Shown piece after piece: positions 9,110-11,154 of a stretch of 33,488 bases of DNA. The stretch's first letter is position 1; the number at the start of each line of letters is the position of its first letter. Location: assembly GCA_945903705.1 (NCBI GenBank), contig CAMDOZ010000015.1, positions 1 to 33,488 of the forward strand. The letters are read 5' to 3'. The position numbers were made by a program, and so were the translations under genes. This stretch comes from Fidelibacterota bacterium. GTDB taxonomy: Bacteria; Pseudomonadota; Alphaproteobacteria; Rhodospirillales; Rhodospirillaceae. A model generated the notes under the pieces. The model saw nothing but the letters and a program-made list of their open reading frames with translations, was not told where the DNA came from and ran no database searches.

Positions 9110-9790
9110 ATGCCTAAGCTTCCGAACTTCAAATACGAGAAGGCAGTTCTGAAGCGTATCCCCGGTGCGCTTGTAGCCGGTGTCGATGAGGCGGGCTGCG
9201 CCCCGCTTGCCGGCCCCGTTGTCGCCGCCGCGGCCATCCTCGATCAGAAGAAACTTCCGAAGGCCTTGCGTGAAGGCCTCGACGATTCCAAAAAAGTGCC
9301 GATCGAAAAGCGCGAGGAGTTCTACGGCATCCTTATGTCCTGCGGCGCGGCAGTCATCGGGGTGGGGCGCGCCGAGGTGCACGAGATCGAAAGCCTCAAC
9401 ATTCTTTACGCCGCGCATCTCGCCATGCGCCGTGCGGTGGAGGCGCTGGGCTGTCTTGTCACCATCGCGCTGGTCGACGGCAACCGCCGACCGAAGCAAT
9501 TCCCGTGCGAAGTGGAGACCATCGTGAAGGGCGACGCGAAGTCCCTCTCCATCGCCGCGGCCTCCATCGTCGCCAAGGTCACGCGCGACCGCTATATGCA
9601 TGAGCTCGCGCGCGATTATCCCGGCTATGGCTGGGAGAACAATGTGGGCTATCCGACGCCCGAACATCGCGCTGCAATCTTGCGGCTCGGACTCACGCCG
9701 CACCACCGCAAAACCTTCGGTTTGGTGCGCACGCAGCTCGCCGGTCCTGCGGCTGTGCAGGAAATACTTCCCCTCATCGCTACAGGTTGA
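9110..9790 (+). CDS. rnhB: Ribonuclease HII
   Basis: Endonuclease that cuts the RNA strand of RNA-DNA hybrids and removes single ribonucleotides from DNA. 226 residues, normal size. Acidic active-site residues are visible: Asp26-Glu27 in GVDEAG, Asp123 in LVDGNRRP, and Asp142 in VKGDAKSLSIAAASIVAKV. Odd: the usual GRG motif after DEA, which contacts the ribonucleotide-deoxyribonucleotide junction, reads Gly29-Cys30-Ala31 here (DEAGCAPLAGP). Catalytic residues are kept, so the protein is probably active, perhaps with changed junction preference. The rnhB-ccrM order is widespread in alphaproteobacteria. The stop codon overlaps the first GANTC site of the ccrM leader. Confidence 0.95.
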   Translation: MPKLPNFKYEKAVLKRIPGALVAGVDEAGCAPLAGPVVAAAAILDQKKLPKALREGLDDSKKVPIEKREEFYGILMSCGAAVIGVGRAEVHEIESLNILYAAHLAMRRAVEALGCLVTIALVDGNRRPKQFPCEVETIVKGDAKSLSIAAASIVAKVTRDRYMHELARDYPGYGWENNVGYPTPEHRAAILRLGLTPHHRKTFGLVRTQLAGPAAVQEILPLIATG

Positions 9791-10053
9791 GTCCGCGGAG
9801 TCCGCGCGACTCTACATCTTGGGTTCTCTATATGGTCCTCTTTACGACCTAGTAACCTTTTGATTCTAATGATTCTTCCAACGACGGGCGTCTCCGGTGT
9901 TCTGGGAACGCCGCCTCAAAGAGACGCCCGCGTTACTTAAAAAGGACCTGCCCCAGCTCCGAGTCATCGGGGTTGAAGAAGGTGGGGAGGGAAGCTCTGA
10001 GATTTCAGGGGCGCACACTTCCCAAAAAAGAGTCTTAGAGGACTGTACATCGC
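9789..10053 (+). promoter_or_regulatory. ccrM leader with a cluster of GANTC methylation sites
   Basis: The rnhB-ccrM gap contains GANTC, the target of CcrM, seven times: 9789, 9798, 9808, 9862, 9871, 9961 and 10030. An eighth lies at 10080 inside the gene. One in about 256 bp is expected by chance. The first two lie in a perfect tandem 9-mer, GAGTCCGCG twice (9789-9806). In Caulobacter, GANTC sites in the ccrM leader let the enzyme's methylation feed back on its own transcription; that is known for that species and inferred here. No TTAA-N7-TTAA CtrA box was seen. No clear -35/-10 pair could be assigned. Confidence 0.7.
9880..9934 (+). other. Long stem-loop in the ccrM leader
   Basis: The outer stem is cgggcgtctc (9885-9894) with gagacgcccg (9921-9930), a perfect 10-bp match. 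It is extended past a bulged A (9884) by aacg/cgtt (9880-9883 with 9931-9934). Inside, 9895-9902 pairs with 9906-9913 (8 bp, one G-U) around a 3-nt loop, leaving a 7-nt bulge at 9914-9920. No U-run follows (acttaaaaagg), so it is not a standard intrinsic terminator. It may be a structured 5' leader of ccrM mRNA or an RNA processing site. Confidence 0.6.
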
Positions 10054-11154
10054 ATGCCCGCGGCCCAACCGCTGAAGCCGAATCACATCTACAGCGGCGA
10101 CTGCGTCGAGATCATGGGGCGCCTGCCGGAAGGCAGCGTGGATCTCGTCTTCGCCGACCCTCCGTACAACCTTCAGCTCGGCGGCGAGCTGACGCGGCCC
10201 GATAACTCACGCGTCGACGGCGTCGACGACGCGTGGGATCGGTTCAGCGACTTCAAAGCCTACGACGACTTCACCCGCGGCTGGCTCAGCGCGGCGAAGC
10301 GCGTTCTCAAGGACACAGGCTCGCTCTGGGTCATCGGCTCCTACCACAACATCTTCCGCGTGGGTTCGATCCTCCAGGACCTTGGGTTCTGGGTGCTGAA
10401 CGACATTGTCTGGCGCAAATCCAATCCCATGCCGAACTTCCGCGGCACGCGCTTTACCAACGCGCACGAAACCATGATCTGGTGCTCGAAGTCGAAGGAG
10501 GCCCGCTACACCTTCAACTACGAAGCCATGAAGAACCTCAACGAAGGTTTGCAGATGCGCAGCGATTGGACGCTGCCGCTCTGCACCGGTGCAGAACGTC
10601 TGAAGGGTGATGACGGCAATAAGCTGCATCCCACGCAGAAGCCGGAATCGCTTCTCTACCGTGTCATCACCGCGGCCACGAAGCCCGGCGATCTCGTGGT
10701 CGATCCGTTCTTCGGCACCGGGACGACCGGCGCGGTCGCCAAGCACCTCGGCCGCAACTACATCGGCATGGACCGCGACGAAAACTACATCGCCGCGGCG
10801 CGCGAAAGAATCGCCAACGTGAAACCCATTACGGACGAAAAGATGCTCATCACCCCGGCAAAACGCACCGAACCCCGCATTCCCTTTGGAACAGTTGTCG
10901 AACGCGGGTTCTTGATCCCGGGCACGGTCCTCTCGGATCCCTCGGGGCGTTTCACCGCCAAGGTGAGAGCGGATGGCACTTTGATATCAGCGGATTACCG
11001 CGGATCGATCCATCAGGTCGGAGCCCTCGTCCAGGGCGCGCCGGCCTGCAATGGATGGACCTTCTGGCACGTGAAGATGGGAAATTCTCTTGTCGCCATC
11101 GACGTTTTCCGCCAGAAGGTGCGCGCCGAACTGGGAAGTTCGGCCCTCCAATAG
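10054..11154 (+). CDS. ccrM: Cell-cycle-type adenine DNA methyltransferase (GANTC), CcrM
   Basis: Orphan N6-adenine methyltransferase that methylates the A in GANTC. In alphaproteobacteria this marks replicated DNA and ties transcription to the cell cycle. 366 residues, usual CcrM length. The beta-class order is present: catalytic DPPY at 35-38 ([10 protein letters not shown]), a central target-recognition region ([20 protein letters not shown]), and then the S-adenosylmethionine motif [10 protein letters not shown] at about 217-226. The C-terminal RAMA-like domain (about 270-360, including [11 protein letters not shown]) is found in CcrM and needed for DNA binding in Caulobacter. No restriction endonuclease gene is adjacent, consistent with an orphan enzyme. 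ATG 10054 matches the family N-terminus. Confidence 0.97.

Follow-up and report, generated by a model that had tools for sequence, protein, structure and literature searches.

Methylation sites clustered where they meet a binding protein are known from the Dam-related GATC clusters that are read by SeqA or Lrp. In Caulobacter, ccrM itself, the gene for the GANTC methyltransferase CcrM, has been deemed most probably methylation-regulated (PMC3973325, PMC4287350), and section 8 of an earlier survey of cell-cycle gene promoters counted sites and there concluded nothing on control (PMC2877005). A bound regulator can shield GANTC from methylation: MucR is a known case, and a synthetic promoter has demonstrated it for CtrA; three GANTC placed over two CtrA boxes were only partially methylated (PMC5172544). 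The nucleotide-sensing regulator NrdR, in turn, attaches to DNA with ATP and deoxyadenosine triphosphate (dATP) bound (PMC12051234). Here we analyze a 33,488-nt stretch (the window) from a Fidelibacterota bacterium (assembly GCA_945903705.1, contig CAMDOZ010000015.1), in which a first-pass annotation had noted eight GANTC in the ccrM leader and first codons and had read them as one graded methylation switch. The cluster probably controls ccrM, and its sequence makes it likely that it does so as part of a composite control region, consisting of a tandem NrdR operator, a CtrA-like/–10-like block, and a structured 5′ leader of ~150 nt.

GANTC sites in the ccrM leader

The sites and the two flanking genes are as follows, in window coordinates, with the sites given without strand.

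9110..9790, forward strand: rnhB (ribonuclease HII), the gene upstream of ccrM; open reading frame, named from sequence
9789..9793: GANTC 1, at the inner side of box 1, with an offset of 12 relative to the box 1 start (letters and relatives)
9798..9802: GANTC 2, spacer centre, offset 21 (20–21 in relatives; letters and relatives)
9808..9812: GANTC 3, inner edge of box 2, offset 31 (30–31 in relatives); absent in L096
9862..9866: GANTC 4, TTGATTC; kept in the genus alignment except in L093 (TGATGC)
9871..9875: GANTC 5, present in most of the genus, but displaced in L004 and missing from L010 and L096
9961..9965: GANTC 6, in an RNA loop; counterpart only in L006 and L101 among 17 aligned relatives
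10030..10034: GANTC 7; aligned counterpart only in L006 among the same 17
10080..10084: GANTC 8, coding; counterpart only in L004, L005, and L006 among the same 17
10054..11154, forward strand: ccrM, 366 amino acids; open reading frame, the only full-length homologue found in its own genome

All eight sites were confirmed at these positions. The rnhB–ccrM gap spans 9791–10053 (263 nt), and of the seven sites that had been assigned to it six lie wholly inside, while that at 9789 straddles its edge, overlapping the rnhB stop codon (9788–9790); one lies inside ccrM. The gene taken for the neighbour, petB (26632–27861), does carry a single site but is ~16 kb away, the actual neighbour being rnhB. 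Overall, the window is depleted in GANTC (85 versus 163 expected from shuffles). Dinucleotide-preserving shuffles of 9786–10086 yielded at least eight sites in 1 of 5000 (mean 1.78), and shuffles of the gap alone reached its six sites in 15 of 5000 (mean 1.70). Within the own-genome sample (41 stretches including the window, together 833,488 bases out of 3.41 Mb), the cluster ranks first in density at the 296-nt scale, with eight sites against six for the runner-up, and also at 100 nt; at 150 nt, one other stretch ties at five. A chance origin was set aside on the strength of these shuffles and this sample, and the supposition that the cluster is exceptional stands for the sampled part of its own genome. 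Crude gene calls give GANTC densities of 3.8 per kb between genes versus 2.3 per kb in coding sequence, and shorten the ccrM gap to four sites in 190 nt, which is still the densest among 153 gaps of 150–500 nt. Other dense stretches in the own genome are L116:7907-8127 (6 in 221 nt) and L114:1169-1205 (4 in 37 nt); the genes beside them revealed no obvious cell-cycle theme, as judged from first residues alone.

Conservation divides the sites. Five retain their positions in most genus members, in agreement with the expectation that sites would be kept upstream of ccrM in relatives: three in an NrdR-type operator and two at a promoter-like block. Of the two results that would have refuted the first-pass annotation, such clusters being common or the sites going unconserved in near relatives, neither was obtained. 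The usual genus spacing is a triplet ~9 and 10 nt apart, then mostly 53–64 nt, then a doublet 9 nt apart, with the greatest departures in L093 and L096; the first site occurs at offset 12 in 16 of 17 listed genus-like leaders, which L009 joins with a longer stretch. The sites at 9961, 10030, and 10080 are poorly kept (L011, L012, and L101 have a GANTC near the 10030 position that is not aligned with it), and the five conserved sites form two different things; one graded switch made of all eight is not supported. Similarly, the tandem GAGTCCGCG formed by the first two sites is exact in the window, as described, but is not kept in aligned relatives, and was rejected as a functional unit.

Crowding of GANTC ahead of ccrM extends across the class. 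A set of 60 class leaders was taken in score order from 85 non-own genomes with the protein (G249 and G268 skipped), and their 200 nt ahead of ccrM contain 217 GANTC versus 23.6 expected from upstream sequence, a 9.2-fold enrichment, compared to 0.9–2.2-fold for seven other palindromic pentamers. At least three GANTC occur in 43 of the 60 and none in 5. The number of sites is therefore not peculiar to this genome. The protein search found 79 ccrM loci among named contigs, and homologues with an E value no higher than 1e-60 are present in 65 of the 73 family genomes and 86 of the 115 class genomes, their GANTC specificity being putative; an rnhB homologue adjoins ccrM in 56 of the 60 class-wide loci.

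The NrdR-type operator and its GANTC phase

By eye, two dyads interlock with the GANTC triplet, the first overlapping the last codons and stop of rnhB.

9777..9792, forward strand: NrdR-type box 1 (TCGCTACAGGTTGAGT), centre weak; reductase-promoter matrix, paired with box 2
9809..9824, forward strand: NrdR-type box 2 (ACTCTACATCTTGGGT), 32 bp from box 1 with a 16-bp spacer; reductase-promoter matrix

A first motif scan used an NrdR consensus at spacings of 14–49, in which 31 and 32 bp stood out; 26 bp reached 8 in one set, leaderless L054, L072, and L074 included. The matrix comprises 24 boxes from 12 ribonucleotide reductase promoters of the genus and was made palindromic (consensus CCACTATATATAGTGG); these are 12 of 20 reductase-upstream stretches, L309 being left out and seven having no pair. 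Under this matrix the window pair scores 18.7 bits, ranking 4th of 1,666,976 positions (833 kb). The top two pairs both lie in the reductase promoter of contig 37, one being training data and the other the second pair there. The third, non-training and with 21.2 bits, occurs at a reading-frame start (L122:11448-11494, own genome, contig 11) and precedes a gene cluster that includes rpiB, glyA, nrdR, and ribD (identified from sequence, nrdR by a family match). NrdR itself is encoded in the genome (G000:C11:14053-14490, 181.8 bits, family match), and of 115 class genomes, 105 have an nrdR match with an E value of at most 0.001, with 102 exceeding the family cut-off.

Leaders were grouped by protein identity to the window CcrM into near (at least 76%) and intermediate (59–76%, including more distant family members) sets, with five loci below 59% outside both; rows with less than 150 nt of leader (L013, L054, L072, L036, and L074) were dropped from pair counts. 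Pairs of at least 10 bits were found in 31 of 32 near leaders (shuffled mean 1.2, largest 4), 40 of 84 intermediate leaders (1.9, largest 8), and 24 of 60 class leaders (1.6, largest 5); the single near miss, L009, scores 9.0 with a longer stretch. Equal-length upstream pieces passed in only 1 of 101 (near), 3 of 637 (intermediate), and 3 of 237 (class) cases. Counts peak at a start-to-start spacing of 31–32 bp, which, with the 16-bp spacer here, fits the published spacer rule of 14–17 bp (or 24–27) (PMC12051234). When the search was restricted to the last 36 nt of rnhB plus the gap, with an adjacent rnhB required, pairs were retained in 27 of 27 near (shuffled mean 0.8, largest 5) and 32 of 62 intermediate leaders (0.9, largest 3). 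These sequence comparisons make a strong case for an NrdR-type operator ahead of ccrM in the window's clade.

The GANTC sites are also in register with this operator. Under the above restriction, GANTC whose centres lie no more than 24 nt from the middle of the operator occur solely at 0–3, 8–12, and 22–24 nt (class 15, intermediate 50, near 69 sites), and the first two intervals hold 14 of 15 class, 42 of 50 intermediate, and all 69 near sites; the corresponding counts in the wider sets are 16 of 20, 52 of 60, and 79 of 80. Because near and intermediate rows are related, the class set, in which a few families are present twice, is the more independent evidence on phase. GANTC is absent from the 12 reductase operators and from the one preceding the nrdR cluster, and given the fixed phases, the CcrM sites look as though they were incorporated specifically into the ccrM operator, in its middle and at its inner ends.

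Several observations adjoin these results. The pair ahead of the nrdR cluster contrasts with a published regulon study, according to which autoregulation of NrdR was never found (PMC5343134), and another pair, of 16.3 bits, precedes a gene resembling acyl-CoA ligases (L121:9608, on contig 10 of the own genome). In L021, L219, L262, L263, and L266, rnhB ends with in-frame AAG ATA TTG, which forms an NrdR-type box; the ATA codon is expected to be rare in GC-rich genomes, hinting at selection on DNA in these rnhB 3′ ends. Literature linking NrdR with ccrM was not found in the titles and abstract openings listed or in PMC2500167, PMC5343134, or PMC12186491, with supplementary regulon tables outside the scope of the search. 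A Caulobacter nrdR deletion spreads 10% more on soft agar, interpreted as an effect of deoxynucleoside triphosphates, and the main text of that study does not contain the word ccrM (PMC12186491).

Promoter-like block and leader RNA

Downstream of the operator, two further elements accompany the conserved GANTC doublet and are followed by a structured region.

9841..9857, forward strand: CtrA-box-like TTTA-N7-GTAACC; pattern conserved in near entries
9868..9873, forward strand: putative –10-like element, AATGAT here and TATGAT in many genus members; from the alignment
9875..10021, forward strand: structured leader RNA with three stem regions; model R1, 122.8 bits (window sequence in the training set), and covariation

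The block begins 17 nt after box 2 with TTWA-N6/7-nTAA followed by TTGATTC, and most genus members have a further GATTC overlapping or after the TATGAT-like word. TTWA-N6/7-nTAA and then TGAN(T/G)C occurs in 28 of 35 near entries (shuffled mean 0.005, largest 1); three of the 35 have no usable leader. The CtrA-activated promoter pattern is TTAA-N7-TTAA at –35, of which TTWA-N6/7-nTAA, at its fixed place in the near entries, may be a degenerate form. Read in this way, the block would place a CtrA-like box on the –35 region and flank the –10 with GANTC. A different motif, TTGA-n followed by GANTC within 2–4 nt, occurs in 29 of 60 class leaders compared to 0 of 235 upstream pieces (60 shuffled leaders: mean 0.3, largest 2) and in 49 of 84 intermediate leaders. 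Between operator and block, the leaders of L007, L008, and L105 contain an exact TTATCCACA, which we take to be DnaA-box-like.

Across 9875–10021, relatives keep structure more than sequence. The R1 model, built from 19 sequences, gave 24 matches in 75 sources (the 19 training sequences and five others), and matches in 27 of 73 family genomes; the window's genus accounts for 17 of these (out of its 19 genomes) and four other genera for the remaining 10. Order-wide, 6 of 199 genomes matched, five from the window's family, one weakly. In 24 of the 27, the top match sits on the ccrM contig, immediately before that gene; in G009, G041, and G056 it is on another contig, and the ccrM match there is partial or starts near a contig end. 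Weak second matches away from ccrM (~22–26 bits) occur at G008:C403:4202-4319, G010:C14:84251-84367, and G058:C14:41592-41666. The covariation score of the fitted alignment is 0.263, versus 0.149 for shuffled and 0.05–0.11 for slid versions. Helix 2 is paired in all 24 sequences, with both sides changing at 6 of 8 pairs, whereas part of helix 1 is misaligned, with 60% of its cells paired. From this alignment, RNAalifold recovered all of helix 2, some of helix 3 (shifted in register), and some of helix 5, and did not recover helices 1 and 4. Of 23 sequences, 11 have a perfect outer helix that surpasses shuffles at a level of 0.025.

Searches of 9700–10200 against 4227 Rfam families gave no match at E up to 10, L076 2600–3050 gave just two matches far below threshold, and 13 sources yielded only tRNAs at the Rfam gathering score. 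The structured leader is a candidate new RNA family. Its identification as 6S or another Rfam RNA was rejected, given that the 6S RNA of the own genome lies elsewhere and that Rfam gave no match; also rejected, on inspection by eye only, were an upstream reading frame behind the GGAGG-like run in the RNA and a G-quadruplex there, the G-runs not being kept in all members. In addition, L007, L008, L010, L073, L075, L076, L089, and L093 carry, by eye, an extra hairpin just upstream of ccrM with seemingly covarying arms (GACGCGCG ... CGCGCGC), which was not seen in the window.

Proposed control and comparison with known systems

The split of the conserved sites between operator and promoter-like block, together with the RNA, indicates a composite region rather than a simple site-count switch. 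From the elements, their conservation, and their geometry we infer NrdR binding, an effect of methylation and its direction, a transcription start, and a function for the RNA. The NrdR operator would sit at the rnhB–ccrM junction, with three CcrM sites, one central and one at either box's inner edge, and two further CcrM sites would flank the CtrA-box-like and –10-like elements 17 to ~50 nt downstream, the transcript starting with the structured leader. At high dATP, NrdR loaded with ATP and dATP would repress ccrM. Passage of the replication fork would leave operator and promoter hemimethylated, which could alter occupancy by NrdR, CtrA, or polymerase and allow ccrM expression late in replication; new CcrM would then methylate its own operator and help to shut the expression window, and the leader RNA may add control after initiation. 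More tentatively, ccrM could be a widespread NrdR target in the Alphaproteobacteria, with a two-input operator that responds to dATP/ATP via NrdR and to fork passage via CcrM sites in the inner box halves, and with the clade's leader RNA as a third input; we regard this broader proposal as possible but doubtful. If the two-input reading is true, a methyltransferase reads its own product on a nucleotide-sensor operator, and an NrdR operator would link the DNA methyltransferase gene ccrM to nucleotide supply. The arrangement of the dense sites around an apparent NrdR site, with a structured RNA behind it, suggests a tie of ccrM to nucleotide supply as well as to DNA methylation. Such links would bear on the timing of ccrM transcription in the alphaproteobacterial cell cycle.

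A number of results weigh against the composite region or its wider distribution. The reductase promoters for the matrix were picked using an NrdR consensus, and one of three genus reductase groups has no pair (L291, L294, L297, L300, L303, L306, and L310). The centre of box 1 is weak in the window's genus, the intermediate set also peaks at 33 bp, 44 of 84 intermediate and 36 of 60 class leaders have no pair, and off-phase GANTC occur in the wider sets (class 4 of 20, intermediate 8 of 60, near 1 of 80). In the restricted class set, pairs fall to 12 of 54 (shuffled mean 1.3, largest 4), because some box 1 matches are conserved rnhB codons; sequence support for the operator class-wide is consequently only moderate. 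At the promoter, a scan of 9700–10100 gave no sigma-70 consensus site and the –10 is weak in the window, so that the promoter here is putative. The TTGA-n-GANTC motif common elsewhere is found in 0 of 32 near leaders, which implies that the window's clade has another promoter arrangement. Finally, class leaders show no enrichment of the GANTC-flanking bases that have been reported for activation by GcrA (43 of 217 versus 26 of 127).

Could the sites act only via CcrM and GcrA at the promoter, with the NrdR-like dyads incidental? The strong class-wide GANTC enrichment and the TTGA-n-GANTC motif of class leaders favour such a methylation-only switch, as do the resemblance to Caulobacter promoters with GANTC between –35 and –10 (PMC4287350) and the presence of GcrA in 14 of 19 genus genomes, own included. 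However, the GANTC triplet lies upstream of the promoter-like block in a phase fixed to the dyads, the dyads match the reductase-promoter matrix, and the GcrA flanking motif YGAKTCG (PMC7987155) matches only the coding site at 10080 among the eight in the window. With those flanking bases not enriched, the extended GcrA motif was set aside as an explanation, and a methylation-only switch appears decidedly unlikely. It is very unlikely that a different regulator, recognizing a similar palindrome, accounts for the joint conservation of dyads and GANTC: the bases retained in box 1 are chiefly the outer ones and both boxes are unlike reductase boxes at their inner ends, but the spacing and matrix fit NrdR, and a pair also occurs ahead of the nrdR cluster.

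The remaining alternatives concern the intergenic setting and the RNA. GANTC is commoner between genes in Alphaproteobacteria with CcrM (excess above 1.5-fold; PMC3973325), as it is in the own genome, and might merely be tolerated there. Such drift is contradicted by the five sites that keep their spacing in most of the genus, by the density of the cluster in the sample, and by the 0.9–2.2-fold values of the seven other pentamers, so the generic intergenic excess was set aside and drift is vanishingly improbable as an explanation. The strong structure downstream and the promoter-like block just upstream of it would also suit a separate small RNA, transcribed from a promoter of its own and not forming the leader of ccrM. 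We consider this unlikely, given the 24 of 27 genomes with the best match just ahead of ccrM, and given that a consensus scan of 9700–10100 found no terminator-like site, hence none between the RNA and ccrM.

Among known systems, the ccrM region resembles the NrdR operators of ribonucleotide reductase genes in its two 16-bp dyads 31–32 bp apart, in a genome that encodes NrdR and a genus whose reductase promoters carry the same motif (12 of 20 stretches). It differs in that the target is a DNA methyltransferase gene, that the operator holds GANTC at fixed phases whereas the 12 reductase operators are GANTC-free, and that it ends 17 nt before a promoter-like block. With the Caulobacter ccrM leader and the GANTC-regulated promoters ctrA P1, dnaA, ftsZ, and mipZ it shares GANTC near a promoter, but compared to that leader, the window has a fixed triplet and doublet, an NrdR pair, and a structured RNA. 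Methylation sites inside a regulator's own site recall the GANTC that overlap CtrA or MucR sites and are occluded from CcrM, with the difference that here the site is of the NrdR type and belongs to ccrM. The Dam-related GATC clusters offer the same meeting of clustered sites and a binding protein, with another enzyme and another protein at this locus.

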